The translations under genes and the position numbers were made by a program. A stretch of DNA of 48,406 nucleotides from Phycisphaerales bacterium (GTDB lineage: Bacteria > Planctomycetota > Phycisphaerae > Phycisphaerales > SM1A02): contig SIAD01000014.1 in NCBI GenBank assembly GCA_009691915.1, positions 1 to 48,406 on the forward strand. Direction: 5' to 3'. Every line of letters begins with the position of its first letter. Position 1 is the stretch's first letter. Positions 6,384 to 13,794 of this stretch are shown here, piece after piece. The notes below the pieces were generated by a model, which saw only the letters and a program-made list of their open reading frames with translations, was not told the origin of the DNA and made no database searches.

Positions 6384-6752
6384 TCATCCGCGCGCGAAGG
6401 CGTCGGGGACCGTCCCGTGCGAGGCGACAATCCGCGACCGAATCCCGCCCCGGCCGCGCCACTCGGATACGACCTGAAGCCATGCCGGACTCATGCGCGA
6501 GACGAGATCGTCGCAAATGCGGTTGGTCACGGCCTCGTAGAAGATCCCCTCGCTACGAAACGACTGGTAGTAGAGCTTGAGCGACTTGAGTTCTACGCAG
6601 GACGCCTGCGGCTGATAGCGCAAAGTGATCGAGCCGAAGTCTGGATGACCGGTCTTGGGGCAGACTGATGTGAACTCTTCATTCACATGCTCAATGAGAT
6701 AGCCCCGCGTCGTGGGCGAATCGAAGAAATCGAGGAGGTCGGTGCGAGGCAT
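6384..6752 (-). CDS. queF: NADPH-dependent 7-cyano-7-deazaguanine reductase (short, YkvM type)
   Basis: QueF reduces the nitrile of preQ0 to the amine preQ1, a step toward queuosine in tRNA anticodons. The 122-residue protein has the nucleophilic Cys31 in TSVCPKTGHPDFG and the proton donor Asp38, with the seven-residue spacing seen in the B. subtilis enzyme. It also has the family NADPH motif ELKSLKLYYQSFRSEG at 54-69. It is shorter than B. subtilis QueF and belongs to the unimodular subgroup. It is the last gene of the minus-strand run starting at the secretin, 14 bases after the endonuclease/TPR frame. No other queuosine gene is in the window. Confidence 0.94.
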   Translation of the reverse strand: MPRTDLLDFFDSPTTRGYLIEHVNEEFTSVCPKTGHPDFGSITLRYQPQASCVELKSLKLYYQSFRSEGIFYEAVTNRICDDLVSRMSPAWLQVVSEWRGRGGIRSRIVASHGTVPDAFARG

Positions 6753-6766
6753 GGGACCGTAGGGGT

Positions 6767-8749
6767 TCAGAGTCCGTAGGTCGTGCAGAGCTTCAGCACC
6801 TTCGGTTGATCGGGAAGTGAGTTCATCGAGGCTCGGAAGGCGCGCCGCGCCTCGGCGGCGGCCTCGCCGTCACGCTTGTCCGAGGCGAGCCAGCGATTGA
6901 GCGCGTTGACGCCGATCCCATTCCAGGCCGGCCAGTACTTCGGGTCGAGTACCACCGCCTGCCGGTACGCCGCACTCGACAACTCATAGTTTCCCGCACG
7001 GAACTCCGCCCATCCGAGGCGCTCGAAAGTCTCCGGTCCCGACGCCAACTTGGTGAGCGCGACCGCGGTGTTCACGGCCTCTGGGTACCGTCGGTCAGCA
7101 ACATAGGCGTTCACGAGATTCATCAGGAGCTGGGGCGTGGGCGTCATCAACTCGCTGGCGGTCTGATACCGCGCGATCGCGTCAGCCGCGCGACCGAGTC
7201 GCTCGTAGGCCACCCCGAGATTGACATGCGCCGCGGCGTTCTTCGGTGACAACTCAACAGCGCGCTCCCCGTACCTCGAGGCCGCACGGGCATCGCCCAG
7301 CGAGAGGTACGCCGTCGCCATATTCAGATTGACTTCGGCACTCTTTGGATTCGCGGCGAGTGCCCGCTGGTATGCGCCGATCGACTCTGCCGCGCGGCCG
7401 AGCATCTGCAGCGATCTCCCATGCCCATACTGCGCCCCGTAGGCGGCAGGATCGAGCTTTGCCGCACGACGGTAGTTCGGCTCGGCGTCGCCGTATCGTC
7501 CCTGGGCGAACCTCACATCGCCAACCCCGACGAAAGCCTCGGGCAGAAGCGGATTCTTCGCTAGAAGGTCCTCAAAGAGCGCGAGCGCTTCGTCGTGGTA
7601 GCCGCGAAGCTGCAGAGTGCCGGCCGTCTCGAGCGCCGCGTTCTCCTCTACCGTTGGGTTCGCTGCAACGACTCGACGAGGTGTGGTATTGGGCGCCTGT
7701 GCCGCCCGCTTCGACTGGAAGATGGAGCATCCACCGACAGAACACGCTGTGATTGCGCCGAGTGCACACATGACCATCACCCAGACCGATGCGACGGCGC
7801 GTGCTCGAGTGCGAGTACGGCGCAACCGACGGATCGTCTCCAGCCGTTGGATATTGGCAAGATCCCACGGCGAGCCGTTACAGAGCCCGTCTTTTGGTGT
7901 CTCAAGGATCATGGGGACGCCGCACAACTCACGGCGTGAGAGAATAGCCGCGAAACAGGCGTCCCCGCAGATCCCCTGCCCGATATGCGTGTGAATGTCC
8001 TTTCGTGACGCCACCGCCCCAACCGAGTCGTTGACATGAACGACGCGCAACGACTCGATCCCGCACCGCTCGTCGAACTCGTCAAGAACGCCCTTGGCGA
8101 GCCGTGGAGTCGACATGTCGTAGCCCGCAGCGACGATGTGGCATGTGTCGAGGCAGATGGCGACGCGCTCCGGCTGCGCCACCATCGACCGGATCGTGGC
8201 TAGGTGGGAGAAGTCGTAGCCGAGGTTGGTCCCACTCCCTGTAGTCGTCTCGAGGCAGGATATGACCGCATATCCGGGCAGACTCCGGTGCAATTCGTCA
8301 AGCGAACGGGCGATCCGGCGCAATCCAAGGAGCTCATCCTTCGATGGTGCCGCGCCCAGGCGGTTGGGCTCGCGCGGCGTGCGCGAAACTCCCAGGTGAG
8401 CGCCCGGATGGAGGACGCACGCCCCGATTCCCAGCGTCTCGCAGCGCTCAAGCTCGTCGAGCTGACGGGTGATCGACCGGCGACGCGCCTCACGATCCGG
8501 CGACGCGAGATTCACGAGGTACGAGTTATGGCTCACGATTCTGGCGGCCGGGTCGGACCATCCCGTTGCCTTCACGGCGTGACGCCACGCCTTCGCTGCC
8601 TCCGCCGTGAGCGGCGGTGCCCTCCACTGCCGTTGATTCCTCGTGAACACCTGCAACGATCCGAGGCCGAGGCGCATCGCCTCCTCGAGAGCCCGGTGCA
8701 TCCCTCCGGCGATCGAGAGATGACTCCCGTACCGCGGTGTGGATTCCAT
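6767..8749 (-). CDS. nfo: Endonuclease IV continuous in frame with a TPR lipoprotein
   Basis: One uninterrupted 660-codon frame holds two proteins that are normally separate. Residues 1-308 are a full-length AP endonuclease IV with all zinc ligands: His74, His114, Glu167, Asp201, His204, His238, Asp251, His253 and Glu283. The signature CLDTCHIVAAGYD is intact. Residues 309-341 then read as a lipoprotein signal peptide: an Arg-rich start, a hydrophobic core at 319-335, and cysteines 336 and 341. Residues about 375-650 are roughly seven tetratricopeptide repeats. Either the cell makes a membrane-spanning fusion with the nuclease inside, or the TPR lipoprotein starts at an internal TTG (7825). 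The second reading seems more natural, but no stop codon separates the parts. Both halves are confident; the joined product is uncertain. Confidence 0.85.
   Translation of the reverse strand: MESTPRYGSHLSIAGGMHRALEEAMRLGLGSLQVFTRNQRQWRAPPLTAEAAKAWRHAVKATGWSDPAARIVSHNSYLVNLASPDREARRRSITRQLDELERCETLGIGACVLHPGAHLGVSRTPREPNRLGAAPSKDELLGLRRIARSLDELHRSLPGYAVISCLETTTGSGTNLGYDFSHLATIRSMVAQPERVAICLDTCHIVAAGYDMSTPRLAKGVLDEFDERCGIESLRVVHVNDSVGAVASRKDIHTHIGQGICGDACFAAILSRRELCGVPMILETPKDGLCNGSPWDLANIQRLETIRRLRRTRTRARAVASVWVMVMCALGAITACSVGGCSIFQSKRAAQAPNTTPRRVVAANPTVEENAALETAGTLQLRGYHDEALALFEDLLAKNPLLPEAFVGVGDVRFAQGRYGDAEPNYRRAAKLDPAAYGAQYGHGRSLQMLGRAAESIGAYQRALAANPKSAEVNLNMATAYLSLGDARAASRYGERAVELSPKNAAAHVNLGVAYERLGRAADAIARYQTASELMTPTPQLLMNLVNAYVADRRYPEAVNTAVALTKLASGPETFERLGWAEFRAGNYELSSAAYRQAVVLDPKYWPAWNGIGVNALNRWLASDKRDGEAAAEARRAFRASMNSLPDQPKVLKLCTTYGL
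7823..7842 (-). promoter_or_regulatory. Candidate internal ribosome binding site and TTG start for the TPR lipoprotein
   Basis: A TTG codon at 7825-7823 would start a 352-residue protein beginning MRRTRTRARA, followed by a hydrophobic core and a cysteine, the exact layout of a lipoprotein signal peptide. A GGAGA sequence lies about 11 bases upstream, slightly far but usable. It falls where the endonuclease IV fold should end. This supports separate initiation within the continuous frame but does not prove it. Confidence 0.35.
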
Positions 8750-8751
8750 TG

Positions 8752-9807
8752 TCAGACCATCCGTGCGCCAGCTCGACGGGCAGCGTCCACGATGCGCTGC
8801 GCGGTTCTCACGGCGGCGAAGCCTGCTTCGGCATCGACGAACGGATGTCCTCCGCCACGCACCGCGCCCAGAAAACTCTCGAGCTGCAGGCGCAGCGGCT
8901 CCCCAGCGGTGACGGCGAGAGGTTCGACCTTCACGAGTTCGAGGTAGTTGAGCGAGGAGAGATCCTCCCCCCGTCGGAACCGCTCACGGATCTCTGCGAG
9001 TTGCTGGGCATTTACCGCCTTGCGCACAACCGTCCCCCTGCGCTCTCCGAAGTCGGCCGAGACATAGGTGTCCTCGCTGATGATGCGGATTTTTCGCTCC
9101 GTTTTGAGCGCGAGGCGGCTGGCGGTGACATTCGCGGTGCACGACAACCCATCGTCCCCCGGCGGAAAGACGAGCCGCGCATTGCAGACATCCTCGGCCT
9201 CGCCCAGCACGCTGACGGCATTGGCGTAGATCTCCTGAGGTTCGCTGCCCATCAGCATGATGAGGACATCGAGGTCGTGGATCATCATGTCCAGGACGAC
9301 TCCGACATCGACCGATCGGAATGTCATAGGTGAAACCCGGTCGACTTCGACGAACCTCGGGCGCAGCCCGTCGATTGCGCGAATCGCCACCATGACCGGA
9401 TCGAAGCGGACTACATGGCCGACCTGCAGGATCGCGCTGCCGCGATGCGATGCCTCAGCTATGGCGCGCGCTTCCCCCGGATCGGGGGCGAGCGGTTTTT
9501 CTACCAGACAGTGAACACCCGCGGCCAGAAGCCGCTCGACGATCACACGGTGGGTGACGGTCGGTGTCGCCACGATGCATGCATCAACTCCTGCAGCCAG
9601 AAGTCCATCGACACTGTCGAACGCAGCGCATCCATACTGCGCGACCATCTCCGCGCGGCGGGTTTCATTGCCATCGACGACACCGACGAGATCCGCCCCG
9701 TCGACCTGCGTGCACAGCCGTGCGTGGTGGCGTCCCATCCGTCCCACGCCGATGACACCGAGTCTGGTCACCGCGGTTGCCGAGGATCGTTCCTGCCCTG
9801 GGATCAT
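8752..9807 (-). CDS. Gfo/Idh/MocA family NAD(P)-dependent oxidoreductase
   Basis: This is a 351-residue sugar-type dehydrogenase. The Rossmann nucleotide motif GVGRMG is at 20-25, the family EKP motif (LVEKPLA) puts its lysine at 104, and the second-domain catalytic region has DMMIHDLD with Asp173 and His177. Members oxidise or reduce sugars, nucleotide sugars or inositols; the closest feel is to UDP-N-acetylglucosamine 3-dehydrogenase-like proteins, but that is an impression. The ATG overlaps the upstream anti-sigma kinase stop as ATGA, so translation is coupled. The gene ends 2 bases before the endonuclease IV start. The substrate is unknown. Confidence 0.85.
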   Translation of the reverse strand: MIPGQERSSATAVTRLGVIGVGRMGRHHARLCTQVDGADLVGVVDGNETRRAEMVAQYGCAAFDSVDGLLAAGVDACIVATPTVTHRVIVERLLAAGVHCLVEKPLAPDPGEARAIAEASHRGSAILQVGHVVRFDPVMVAIRAIDGLRPRFVEVDRVSPMTFRSVDVGVVLDMMIHDLDVLIMLMGSEPQEIYANAVSVLGEAEDVCNARLVFPPGDDGLSCTANVTASRLALKTERKIRIISEDTYVSADFGERRGTVVRKAVNAQQLAEIRERFRRGEDLSSLNYLELVKVEPLAVTAGEPLRLQLESFLGAVRGGGHPFVDAEAGFAAVRTAQRIVDAARRAGARMV

Positions 9808-10232
9808 GAACGCGGGGGCTTTCGGTAGTGCATTTCGATGTGGTTCCCAGGCGCGTGATAGGTCGCGCCTGACATGTAGGTCCGAATCAGCATGATCCCA
9901 CGACCCGACGGGATCTCCAGGTTCTCATCCAGCGTCGGATCGGGAATCGCATCGGGGTCGAATCCTTCGCCCTGATCGGTCACATGAAATGTCGCAACTT
10001 CTGGGGTGACGACCCACCTGACTGTCAGGGACTTTCGCGGATCCTTCTGGTTTCCGTGATGGAATCCGTTCATGATCGCCTCTTCCAGCGAAAGGCGGAT
10101 ACCAAACCGGGCCTGTTCTGCGTAATTCAACTCGGCGAGTACCGCGTCGATCCGTCGCTGAATCGCCTCGATCGCCCGGCTCTCCTCGACGAGATCGATT
10201 GATCCTTCGCGATCACCCTGCGTGGTGGCCAT
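9804..10232 (-). CDS. Anti-sigma factor serine kinase, RsbW/SpoIIAB type
   Basis: This 142-residue GHKL ATPase domain protein is expected to bind a sigma factor or another partner and to phosphorylate its STAS antagonist. The N box LSLEEAIMNGFHHGN (47-61) contains Glu51 and Asn55, matching the catalytic Glu and Mg-binding Asn of SpoIIAB. DQGEGFDP (86-93) and SGRGIMLI (109-116) form the rest of the ATP pocket. It begins 18 bases after the STAS gene and has a good GGAGA 8 bases before the ATG. Its stop overlaps the oxidoreductase start. No sigma factor gene is nearby, so the target is unknown. Confidence 0.88.
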   Translation of the reverse strand: MATTQGDREGSIDLVEESRAIEAIQRRIDAVLAELNYAEQARFGIRLSLEEAIMNGFHHGNQKDPRKSLTVRWVVTPEVATFHVTDQGEGFDPDAIPDPTLDENLEIPSGRGIMLIRTYMSGATYHAPGNHIEMHYRKPPRS

Positions 10233-10240
10233 GATCGCGC

Positions 10241-10245
10241 TCTCC
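10241..10245 (-). promoter_or_regulatory. Shine-Dalgarno sequence of the RsbW-type gene
   Basis: GGAGA on the minus strand lies 8 bases before the ATG at 10232. It is one of the few clear ribosome binding sites in this window and fixes the start of the anti-sigma kinase. Confidence 0.6.
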
Positions 10246-10250
10246 GGGGT

Positions 10251-10616
10251 TCAACCTCGGCCGAACCCCTGCATCGCCTTCTCGGCGGTGTCAAAACTCT
10301 GAAAAAGCTTGTTCAGCTTCGTGATTACGAACACTTCATAGATCGATGGCTTGATGTTGGACAGGCGCAGTTGACCCCCCCGCTTCTTGATGAGGCTATT
10401 CACTGTGATAAGAGTGCCAAGCGCGGCCGACGACAGGTGCTCGACACCCTCAAAGCAGATGAGGACAAGGGGCGGTTTGGCCGATTCGATCGCACGGATC
10501 AGCTCGGAACTTATCTGGCGGATGCTCCCCTCATCGAGGATGTCACGGTCGGTGAACTCGACACGCATTACGCCGTTGATGTCGACGACGCGGATGCGGG
10601 AAGGTGCGGTGGTCAT
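10251..10616 (-). CDS. STAS-domain anti-sigma factor antagonist
   Basis: This 121-residue single STAS domain resembles SpoIIAA/RsbV. The phosphoacceptor loop reads EHLSSAALGTLI, with Ser62/Ser63 at the position of the phosphorylated serine. Flanking strands (PLVLICFEGV) and the helix after the loop fit the fold. In partner switching, the unphosphorylated form binds the RsbW-type kinase and releases its captive sigma factor. The kinase gene is immediately downstream, so the two form a cognate pair. The secretin gene upstream ends 55 bases away, so cotranscription with it is possible. The C-terminus (KLNKLFQSFDTAEKAMQGF) is standard for the family. Confidence 0.88.
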   Translation of the reverse strand: MTTAPSRIRVVDINGVMRVEFTDRDILDEGSIRQISSELIRAIESAKPPLVLICFEGVEHLSSAALGTLITVNSLIKKRGGQLRLSNIKPSIYEVFVITKLNKLFQSFDTAEKAMQGFGRG

Positions 10617-10671
10617 GATTCGCCGCCGAGGGTACCGCCAATCACACTTCGCGGCGGGACGGTCTGCGCGA

Positions 10672-13665
10672 TCAAAACCTTGCCGAGCCAGTACTCCCCA
10701 GACGATCCTGCAGCCCGGGGAAGAGAAGATCTTCCGCCTCCTGCTGGATGATGACCTCAGGACGGATGAGCAGGAGCGTTGTTGTCTCGGTCTTGCTGGT
10801 CACCGAGTTCGTGAAGAACCGGTTGACGAATGGAATCTTCGAGAGGACTGGGACACCGACTTCGATCTCCGTCTCATTGACTTCGCGCCGGCCGCCGAGC
10901 AGGATTGTTCCCTTGTCCGGGACGGACACCGAGGTGTTGATCTGCGTCACCGCAATCGTCGGCAGCTGGATCGTGGCCTGGAATGAACCCGCGCGGCCGA
11001 ATGCATCCCCGCCTCCGGCAGCTCCGCTGACCGTCTGGGCCTCGAACTTGATCAAAATGTTCTGCGCGAACTGCACCGTCATCGAGACATAGCGGCGATC
11101 GGCACTGGTCACCGCCTCGATGTCGAGAACGAAGCCGGTCCGAAGGTTCTGAATGATCGGCTGAAACGCGCCGGCCGCGTCGCCCGTCACCGCCTGCACA
11201 TTGGCGATATAGGACTGCGACTGACCGAAGCTGATCCAAGATCGCGACCCGTTGAACAGTGTCAGCCGTGGGGCGGTGAGGGTCATCGACCTCTGATCCG
11301 CCTGCGTCGCCTGCACGAGGAGATCGACCTGCACATCGTCGAGGTAGGTGAACCCGACGCTCAGCGCGGGGTTGGCCAGCGCGGCAGCACCGACGGTCCC
11401 CTTGATAGCGGCGCCAAGCAACTGAATCAGCGGAAGCCCTTCCTGCTGGACATTCACCGGGGAGACGCCATTGGAGTCATAAAGCCCGCCGTAACTCTCG
11501 CCGGAGCGCCGGACACCGACCGGGTTGTAGAAGCCGCCGTTGGTCGGCCCCGACTGCTGGTAGGTCAGGTTCGCTGCACCGGGTGCCGTCGGCGGCGCGA
11601 TCGCGGTTCCAGTCGATGTCTGGTTGGCGGACGGGAGCTGGGCAGAAGTCTGCCCAAGTCCGCTGAACACCACCGGGCTCTTCAATTGTCCGACTCGGTG
11701 ATCGGGGGTGGTCGACGCGGGGCCGGGGGGATTCTGGAAGAAGAAGTCGCGGAGCTGGAAGTTCGGATCCTGGTCGACCGCGTAGTCAAACATCCCGGGA
11801 TTCGTGTTGAAATACACATCGAAGTCAAAGGCGATCTGCTCGAACCACTCGACATCGACGCCGATGAGCCTGGACTCGATATTGATCTGAACCGCCCGGA
11901 CGGCGCGGAGCTGTGTGAGCAGGTTCATTATGTCGCGGTGGGTTCGCGGGGTCGCCGTGACAATGAGGTTGCCATTGAAGTCGTCCAGACGGCTCTCGGT
12001 CAGATCGCCCTTGTCCCAGAATGCCTCAGGGACGAGGTACTTGATGAGTTCCTTGAGCCCCTGAAGGATCCTGTCGCGCTGATCCTCGATCTCCATATCG
12101 CCGCCGTTTCCGAACAGCGACCCGCCGCCACCGCCGCCGCCGCCGCCACCTCCACTGCCGCCGCCTCCGCCGCCGAATCCGCCGCCACCGCCGCCCTGGC
12201 CGCCACCGCCGCCGCCACCGCCGCCCTGGCCGCCACCGCCGCCCTGGTTGAGTGCCGCATCGATGTTGAAGTTCGGCGCATTGTCGAAGTAGGGAACGAT
12301 GTAGAGGAGATCGCGGACGTCGTACACGATCGTCACGCGGCGAAGCGCGAGCGCCTCGGTCGATGAGACGACGATGATGCCGTCTTCGACGGTCCAGTCG
12401 CCGTGATTGGCCTGTGCGTCAGTCGGGTTGGAGGCATCCCCGGCGGAGGCCTCAAGCGTGAGGTCAAGTGCCTTGTCGCCTCGGATCTGCTGGAACACCA
12501 GGGTGACGGGCGAACTCTTGGTGATCCCCACCGTGTCGAGTGACTTCCAGTCGATGTAGAAGTCGAGGCCAGTGACCTCCTTTAGGTAGTTGAACACCTG
12601 CTCTGCCTCGGTCTCGTTGAAGTCGACCGCGATCCGTTCGCGCAGCTTGGCCATCACGGCCCGATCCACTTCGGTGTCGCAGAACCCAGCCGCTGATTCT
12701 CGCCTAGCCGAAATCTGTGGCCAATCCTCCGGGTAGGCGACTATCGCATCAAGGCTCCGGGGACCGGGGCCGCTCAGATTCACCTTGGGCGGAACGAATG
12801 ACGCCTGCGAATCCACAGACATCTCAGCGAAGGCGAAGGCCCTGCGACGCTGGAGCTCGGTGTATCGGCGGTACAGGATCCCAGACTCGATCACATCGCG
12901 CAGCGCGAGGGCCGCGGGGTTGTTGGGATCAATGAAGAGGATTTCCTGAACGACTTCTAGCGCCTCGGTGTACTTCAACTCCGACTGGAGCTGACGCACA
13001 CGCGCCATGTTCTCGTTGATCGTGCGCTGCCGTTGCTCGAGCTCCTGACGATTCTGCGCCGCGGCTGCACCCTTCTGATCCTGAGCCGAAAGTGCCTTGG
13101 CGCTGTCCGACGCGTCGGTCTGCGCCGCCGTGATCTTCTTCAGTTCAGCTGCGGCTCGTCCCAACCGCTCGTCGTAGTCGGCTGGAGAAAGCAGGCTGCG
13201 GCTGCGTGTGAGCGCGGCCTTCGCCTGCACGATGACTCGCTCCGCCCCGGCATAATCCCCTCGCGAAAACAGCTCGTCGGCACGGATGAGCGTGTTGTCG
13301 AATTCGACCTGGGCCTGCTCGCGCAGCACGGCGGCATCGCCAGTGACTGAGTCGATCGAACTCGCCTGATTCATTGATGCCTGTGCATCCGAGAGCCCCT
13401 TCCCGGCCTCGGCATCGCCGGGAAGCTGGGCCAGAATCGCCGCCCAGAGGTCGGCCGCTGCAGCCCACTGACTTCGAGACATCGCCTGACGCGCCTGCGA
13501 TCTCAGCAGCCCAACCGATGTGTCTGTCTCCGGAGCTGACGGCTCTGGTGCACCGGGGGCGGCGTCCTGCGGCGCGGCAGATTGCGCACTCATCGACGCG
13601 TGAAAGAGTCCCGAGGCCACGACAACGAGCACGCTCGTCATCGCCAGAGTGTTTTTGGAGGTCAT
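10672..13665 (-). CDS. TPR-containing secretin (GspD/PilQ superfamily) with long Gly-rich linker
   Basis: This is an outer-membrane secretin-like channel of 997 residues from the chosen ATG at 13665, where a signal peptide begins (MTSKNTLAMTSVLVVVASG). The frame is open to 13794, but that extension is not signal-like. The N-terminal third is Ala/Gln-rich with TPR-like helices, for example ALEVVQEILFIDPNNPAAL. A small N-domain precedes an almost pure Gly stretch (about 474-515). The C-terminal 250 residues are a secretin domain, with VPDKGTILLGG, VPVLSKIPFVNRFF and a closing TTTLLLIRPEVI motif. No assembly ATPase, platform protein or pseudopilin gene is in the window, so type II, type IV pilus and Tad use cannot be distinguished. 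Confidence 0.88.
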   Translation of the reverse strand: MTSKNTLAMTSVLVVVASGLFHASMSAQSAAPQDAAPGAPEPSAPETDTSVGLLRSQARQAMSRSQWAAAADLWAAILAQLPGDAEAGKGLSDAQASMNQASSIDSVTGDAAVLREQAQVEFDNTLIRADELFSRGDYAGAERVIVQAKAALTRSRSLLSPADYDERLGRAAAELKKITAAQTDASDSAKALSAQDQKGAAAAQNRQELEQRQRTINENMARVRQLQSELKYTEALEVVQEILFIDPNNPAALALRDVIESGILYRRYTELQRRRAFAFAEMSVDSQASFVPPKVNLSGPGPRSLDAIVAYPEDWPQISARRESAAGFCDTEVDRAVMAKLRERIAVDFNETEAEQVFNYLKEVTGLDFYIDWKSLDTVGITKSSPVTLVFQQIRGDKALDLTLEASAGDASNPTDAQANHGDWTVEDGIIVVSSTEALALRRVTIVYDVRDLLYIVPYFDNAPNFNIDAALNQGGGGGQGGGGGGGGGQGGGGGGFGGGGGGSGGGGGGGGGGGSLFGNGGDMEIEDQRDRILQGLKELIKYLVPEAFWDKGDLTESRLDDFNGNLIVTATPRTHRDIMNLLTQLRAVRAVQINIESRLIGVDVEWFEQIAFDFDVYFNTNPGMFDYAVDQDPNFQLRDFFFQNPPGPASTTPDHRVGQLKSPVVFSGLGQTSAQLPSANQTSTGTAIAPPTAPGAANLTYQQSGPTNGGFYNPVGVRRSGESYGGLYDSNGVSPVNVQQEGLPLIQLLGAAIKGTVGAAALANPALSVGFTYLDDVQVDLLVQATQADQRSMTLTAPRLTLFNGSRSWISFGQSQSYIANVQAVTGDAAGAFQPIIQNLRTGFVLDIEAVTSADRRYVSMTVQFAQNILIKFEAQTVSGAAGGGDAFGRAGSFQATIQLPTIAVTQINTSVSVPDKGTILLGGRREVNETEIEVGVPVLSKIPFVNRFFTNSVTSKTETTTLLLIRPEVIIQQEAEDLLFPGLQDRLGSTGSARF
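12121..12245 (-). repeat. Low-complexity GGN repeat encoding a Gly-rich linker in the secretin
   Basis: About 125 bases are almost entirely glycine codons with a few Gln, Phe and Ser codons, including repeated GGQGGGGG-type units. It sits between the N-terminal part and the secretin domain of the protein. Such tracts are prone to slippage, so length may vary between strains or be misassembled. Confidence 0.85.
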
Positions 13666-13788
13666 TGGGGTGAACCGCGAGATGCGAGCGTGGAGGCGAC
13701 CATGCCTTGTCGGATCAAGTCCGCCCGCCTGCCTGACGGGAGGAGGGAGACTAGGCGGCATCACCGACTGCCGCAAGCGAGGCGGGGC

Positions 13789-13794
13789 TATCAT
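13789..13794 (+). promoter_or_regulatory. Candidate -10 hexamer for carA
   Basis: TATCAT ends 8 bases before the carA ATG at 13803. No good -35 sequence and no Shine-Dalgarno sequence are seen in the 137-base divergent gap between carA and the secretin gene. If used, the carA transcript would be leaderless or nearly so. I found no attenuator or PyrR-type structure in this gap. Confidence 0.3.

Follow-up and report, generated by a model that had tools for sequence, protein, structure and literature searches.

An endonuclease IV and a TPR protein in one conserved reading frame, joined through an internal lipobox-like segment: a candidate bacterial polyprotein of the Phycisphaerales

Proteins that are joined by gene fusion usually belong to the same compartment. 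In the Bradyrhizobium cytochrome b/c1 precursor, FbcH, two envelope proteins are made as a single precursor with an internal signal peptide. Signal peptidase cuts between the two membrane-bound respiratory proteins, and the precursor is not known to contain a lipobox or a DNA-repair enzyme. In hepatitis C virus, the core-E1 polyprotein is cut by signal peptidase and then by signal-peptide peptidase, and its upstream part, a cytosolic protein, has at its end the signal peptide of the exported protein that follows (PMC5402940). The protein described here shares this arrangement with core-E1, but the viral system depends on a eukaryotic signal peptidase, whereas Lgt, LspA and perhaps a site-2 protease are presumed to act here; the parallel is one of mechanism only. 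In E. coli, HA-MBP-tagged signal peptides have been reported as RseP substrates (PMC10470546), which suggests that E. coli tolerates a cytosolic domain ahead of a signal peptide.

Both halves of the protein also have described counterparts. With E. coli Nfo (1qtw/1qum) it shares the fold, the nine metal ligands and the full domain length. Unlike in E. coli Nfo, the last helix does not end the protein but leads into a membrane segment, behind which a second protein follows. Solved structures of Nfo among the matches listed are chains of 252–323 residues, while the present protein has 660. The TPR envelope lipoproteins PilW/PilF, Tgl and PrsT resemble the other half in having a lipobox-like site, a tether and a TPR solenoid, and their profiles match it weakly, but in our protein the signal segment is internal rather than N-terminal. 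A literature search that covered few subscription journals returned no paper on an endonuclease IV-tetratricopeptide lipoprotein fusion or on Nfo in Planctomycetes, and the term internal lipobox was absent among the matches listed.

The gene lies on the minus strand of the window, which is the whole stretch of DNA analysed (48,406 nucleotides of contig SIAD01000014.1 from a Phycisphaerales bacterium). An ATG at 8749 and a stop codon at 6769..6767 bound a frame of 660 codons (6767..8749) that encodes endonuclease IV, a signal anchor with a lipobox-like site and a TPR domain. The frame had been placed at exactly these positions in an earlier note on this DNA, which did not mention the strand. 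That note had also described a complete Nfo with all nine zinc ligands that continues into a lipoprotein part without a stop codon, and both observations are borne out by the continuous frame and by the alignment with E. coli Nfo.

The endonuclease IV domain comprises residues 1–305 (7835..8749, minus strand) and is supported by profiles, alignment and structure prediction. Pfam AP_endonuc_2 matches this part with E = 1.9e-46, and the NCBIfam profile TIGR00587 (nfo) scores 244.7 bits, above its curated cut-off of 129.65. Using the ligand labels of E. coli Nfo, the alignment with 1qtw assigns all nine metal ligands: H74, H114, E167, D201, H204, H238, D251, H253 and E283. The nine are intact in 48/48 fused and 43/43 separate homologues, the exception being a fused locus in which a single residue is lost where the contig ends. 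A Foldseek search with the predicted model places E. coli Nfo (1qum_A) first, with a TM-score of 0.95 by target length, and the TIM-barrel fold of 1qum_A is present in the model. The Nfo part is the only endonuclease IV match found in the window genome. At the same time, XthA (TIGR00633) was found in none of the 19 genomes of the window's genus, the window genome included, while 9 of 14 control genomes match. Since there is a single Nfo match and XthA was not found, the fused enzyme, judged from the two families searched, is probably the main AP endonuclease, and as such it must reach the chromosome. In a genome of another genus (G022, genus g5), XthA is present, and a search of the 4 kb surrounding the TPR gene gave no nfo.

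The last helix of the Nfo part does not end at the domain boundary. An AlphaFold2 model built from 42 sequences (mean pLDDT 92.4, pTM 0.56) shows a single helix at residues 295–335 (7745..7867, minus strand), and hydropathy gives one hydrophobic segment at about residues 315–335, so the last Nfo helix is predicted to run straight into this segment. The low pTM means that the relative placement of the two domains is not given by the model. Behind the segment lies a lipobox-like cysteine, C341, preceded by VGG (codon 7727..7729, minus strand), which is the presumed Lgt/LspA site. C336, preceded by ITA (7742..7744, minus strand), is an alternative. From the flanking residues of relatives, C341 rather than C336 is judged to be the homologous cysteine.

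In 51/51 fused junctions, a hydrophobic stretch is followed by a cysteine with Gly, Ala or Ser at −1. Our script demanded one of these residues, so the −1 position is not independent evidence, and the evidence is that such a cysteine exists in every junction. The net charge ahead of the hydrophobic segment is positive in 49/51. On the other hand, Leu at −3 is seen in 15/51 fused junctions versus 25/42 separate genes, making this position laxer in the fused group, and a PROSITE-like lipobox pattern fits 31/51 fused junctions versus 34/42 separate genes. This could mean weaker or absent cutting by LspA. All 20 fused junctions that do not fit the pattern belong to genera g1 and g55, which makes efficient cutting by LspA less likely in these two genera. 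The earlier note had called the lipoprotein signal peptide perfect. The hydrophobic segment and the cysteine stand, but the adjective does not, given the loose −3 position in the fused group and the lack of an N-terminus of its own. Lipoproteins are translated with an N-terminal signal peptide, and here about 300 Nfo residues precede it.

Lgt and LspA are both encoded in the window genome, and each was found in 20 of 21 genomes searched (13 of the window's genus and 8 of other families); LspA was missed in G001 and Lgt in G004, both incomplete assemblies. The same searches match 10 and 9 of 14 control genomes. A member of the M50/site-2 protease family is present in 21/21. A general habit of internal lipoboxes was considered and rejected from a sample of the genome: among 333 open reading frames in 408 kb, the window included, the nfo::tpr protein is the sole case of an internal lipobox with a single hydrophobic segment, and the four other hits carry 4 to 11 segments.

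Between the lipobox and the TPR domain, residues 342–358 (7676..7726, minus strand) form a low-confidence tether, with pLDDT under 50 at residues 335–358. The TPR solenoid occupies residues 367–657 (6779..7651, minus strand) and is identified by profile and model. About seven repeats had been suggested for it; the model shows 8 helix pairs and a cap instead. Consensus TPR proteins appear in the Foldseek results from rank 16 on. The profiles of TPR lipoproteins remain below their curated cut-offs, with 54.3 of 154 bits for PilW, 54.8 of 225 for Tgl and 70.1 of 312.2 for PrsT, and a secretin pilotin of the PilW/Tgl type is rejected on these scores.

The distribution of the join was followed in a first scan of 61 genomes and a family scan of 181 genomes. 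All of these matched, many through one half or through TPRs only. Apparently fused loci were taken, together with a sample from the remainder. Of the loci that carry the two halves on the same contig, 91 were analysed; 82 of them belong to the family and 9 to three further families of the order. Within the family, 48 of the 82 loci (47 genomes) are fused, and they make up every examined both-halves locus of six genera (g1 17, g55 12, g60 11, g17 4, g6 3 and g62 1). The remaining 34 are separate neighbours, spread over 25 further genera. Among the examined loci every genus is uniform, most separate genera being represented by one or two loci, g18 by three and g19 by five. Three g55 and three g60 genomes with weaker matches were left out (G129, G131, G138, G186, G189 and G196). 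Outside the family, 9/9 loci are separate, and an order-wide draw of 251 genomes gave no stop-free span of both halves outside the family among the matches listed. The earlier note had suggested comparing orthologous frames in related Phycisphaerae and had named a stop codon between the parts in close relatives as evidence against the fusion. The comparison finds the parts fused at 48/48 both-halves loci of the six genera, with no such stop; stops between the parts were seen solely in other genera, where the two genes are plain neighbours. One genome, G188, carries two different fused nfo-TPR genes (L156 and L157). In G142 (contigs C15 and C10), one contig ends inside a fused gene, and the other has a separate match to the TPR part (E = 9.5e-87).

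For the analysis of the junction itself, three fused loci that run off the contig end (L028, L166 and L167) were added to the 48, giving 51 junctions, and L025 (g1), which is cut before the junction, was dropped. The 1,821 junction codons contain no in-frame stop, while base shuffles give a mean of 55.7 and a minimum of 33; within the fused class, which is defined by an open frame, the zero is circular, and its weight lies in the fact that no locus of the six genera falls outside this class. A chance open frame is ruled out by these two observations together. Read in the other two frames, the linker part has 23 and 15 stops and the hydrophobic part has 51 and 2, the count of 2 meaning that one alternative frame is nearly open in the latter. 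The junction is 22–69 codons long and always in frame, while the 43 separate pairs use all three relative frames (16/5/22). In g60, the few linker codons that can be aligned, which belong to the conserved Nfo end, differ at the third position only (37%). The g55 linker differs at all three codon positions (0.53, 0.44 and 0.67), and this much difference points to a loose constraint on the linker sequence, with the frame nonetheless maintained. The conserved single frame is firmly shown at the level of sequence.

To follow the history of the join, a tree with no root assigned was made by a quick method from the two proteins themselves, covering 66 of the 91 loci. The fused label needs 4 changes on this tree, at least 3 of them required by well-supported branches, and a single fused clade is rejected by the AU test (p-AU 4.4e-07). 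Genus g17 is fused, but the genera closest to it, g53 and g48, are separate, and this placement is highly supported. The tree has long branches for g60 and g18, for which it should be read with care, and includes two rows of unusual letter make-up. The join appears to have changed more than once, and repeated fusions or one fusion with later splits would both fit.

We consider the protein to be best explained as a bacterial polyprotein, in which Nfo and the precursor of a TPR lipoprotein are made together and cut at the internal lipobox by Lgt/LspA, with a probability of roughly 0.6. Two proteins do lie in one continuous conserved frame; their proteolytic separation is inferred from the conserved cysteine only. 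Neighbouring co-directional genes for nfo and a TPR lipoprotein would have become one translated frame, and the lipoprotein signal peptide, which has no conserved start of its own, would continue the last Nfo helix and act as an internal signal anchor. The precursor would be inserted through Sec with Nfo in the cytosol and the TPR domain outside. Lgt would then lipidate the cysteine, and LspA would cut just before it. The products would be a mature TPR lipoprotein and an Nfo that keeps the signal peptide as a C-terminal helix and is anchored by it in the membrane. More speculatively, an RseP-type site-2 protease may shorten the leftover helix, which would release Nfo.

A quite different route to two products, put forward in the earlier note, is internal initiation at TTG 7825. 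In its general form, the lipoprotein would be made from its own start inside the frame, and the fused product would be a by-product. This TTG encodes residue 309 (7823..7825, minus strand). When positions are counted, with no gaps, from a Leu-Glu pair that 18/18 g1 junctions share, the place of this TTG holds a start codon in 0/17 other junctions of the window's genus, which leaves the proposal unsupported and rules out TTG 7825 as a conserved start mechanism. One codon earlier, TTG is found in L007 and L009 and GTG in L011. The nearest GGAG, 12 nt upstream of TTG 7825, spells the Leu-Glu pair itself, and 16 of the 18 g1 junctions spell the pair differently. Taken over all junctions, start codons ahead of the cysteine are common enough to give the idea some support. 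An ATG, GTG or TTG lies 16–34 codons before the cysteine in 39/51 fused junctions (none in 12) versus 39/42 separate genes (none in 3), and an ATG in 20/51 versus 35/42; within 16–40 codons the fused values are 45/51 (none in 6) and 33/51, and within 16–41 codons the separate values are 42/42 and 39/42, where fused counts use re-picked cysteines and separate counts use the earlier choice and leave out L043 (g16), which has no cysteine near its TPRs. L014 and L015 have an ATG at the normal position of a lipoprotein start, and predicted anti-Shine-Dalgarno pairing is strong for the TTG of L157 and L164 (−12.2 kcal/mol) and the GTG of L058 (−10.3), the window's TTG having −6.4. The predicted pairing is weak also at many separate genes' starts and so decides little. 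In some g60 loci the sole ATG is the Met of the METPKE stretch in the Nfo core, and the g60 hydrophobic stretch starts right after the presumed Nfo helix. No start position is conserved in the window's genus, and the lack of a start codon in 12/51 fused junctions, or 6/51 over the longer range, weighs against the idea. Internal initiation should also tolerate stops or frame shifts between the parts, and there are none in 48 loci of six genera. Internal starts may be used in single genomes, but as a conserved mechanism they are not supported, and we regard this explanation as unlikely. Of the earlier note's overall reading, the join is borne out and initiation at TTG 7825 is given up, while its membrane-tethered enzyme and its cut by signal peptidase II both stay as candidate outcomes, either of which the sequence would allow. 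The locus left out of the separate counts, L043 of genome G033, has a long Pro/Glu/Ala-rich stretch ahead of its TPRs and no lipobox near them.

The fusion may also stay uncut, with a signal anchor, lipidated or plain, linking Nfo to a periplasmic TPR arm and making it a membrane-tethered AP endonuclease. The open frame, the continuous helix and the laxer −3 position of the fused group would all agree with this, but the cysteine and the small residue before it are found in every fused junction even though the remainder of the segment is variable, the genome encodes Lgt and LspA, and a mere tether would not need a motif of the cleavage type. This makes the uncut form unlikely, if less so than internal initiation. 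How the frame came to be joined is partly a separate matter, and a neutral origin, in which drift in compact genomes removed the stop and the join has no function, is compatible with the polyprotein reading. The two genes adjoin also where they are separate, which leads us to infer that adjacency came first and the join later. A median intergenic spacer of 43.5 nt is reported for the Nemodlikiaceae (PMC6461901), freshwater Phycisphaerae to which the window genome may or may not belong. Against drift, no locus among the 48 of the fused genera has been re-split, the fused label changed more than once on the tree, and g19, with genomes of 1.6–2.1 Mb, is separate in 5/5 examined loci. A neutral origin is a real possibility, at somewhat less than even odds. 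Finally, the named relatives are mostly metagenome assemblies, and an assembly or sequencing artefact might be suspected in any one of them; the same fused frame at 48 loci in 47 genomes of six genera rules this out for practical purposes.

With the polyprotein reading preferred, the locus combines a cytosolic DNA-repair enzyme and an envelope lipoprotein in one frame, with the export signal in the middle of the protein, at 48 loci. If it is cut, bacteria would have a natural polyprotein matured through the lipoprotein pathway, and if uncut, a membrane-tethered repair enzyme. Either way it can be tested directly whether a lipobox that lies 300 residues inside a protein is used by Lgt and LspA, and whether the chromosome is repaired from the membrane when the sole detected endonuclease IV is membrane-born and no XthA was found. 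It is doubtful, though conceivable, that the sole endonuclease IV is left attached to the membrane by the LspA cut, with a site-2 protease controlling its release and base-excision repair coupled to envelope biogenesis. The case also suggests that lipoprotein searches limited to N-termini would miss such proteins.

The gene is embedded in a block on the minus strand (6384..13794) in the order secretin (MshL/GspD-like), STAS anti-anti-sigma factor, RsbW-like protein, Gfo/Idh, nfo::tpr and queF. The stop of the Gfo/Idh-family gene lies two bases before the nfo::tpr start, and queF follows nfo::tpr. The block from secretin to queF is present in the fused relatives with enough flank, and also in L076 and in the separate locus L089. 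In the majority of the remaining separate loci, nfo adjoins gfo, queF or both. The secretin-like protein of the window (10672..13794, minus strand) contains a long glycine-rich, low-complexity insert in the middle of the protein.
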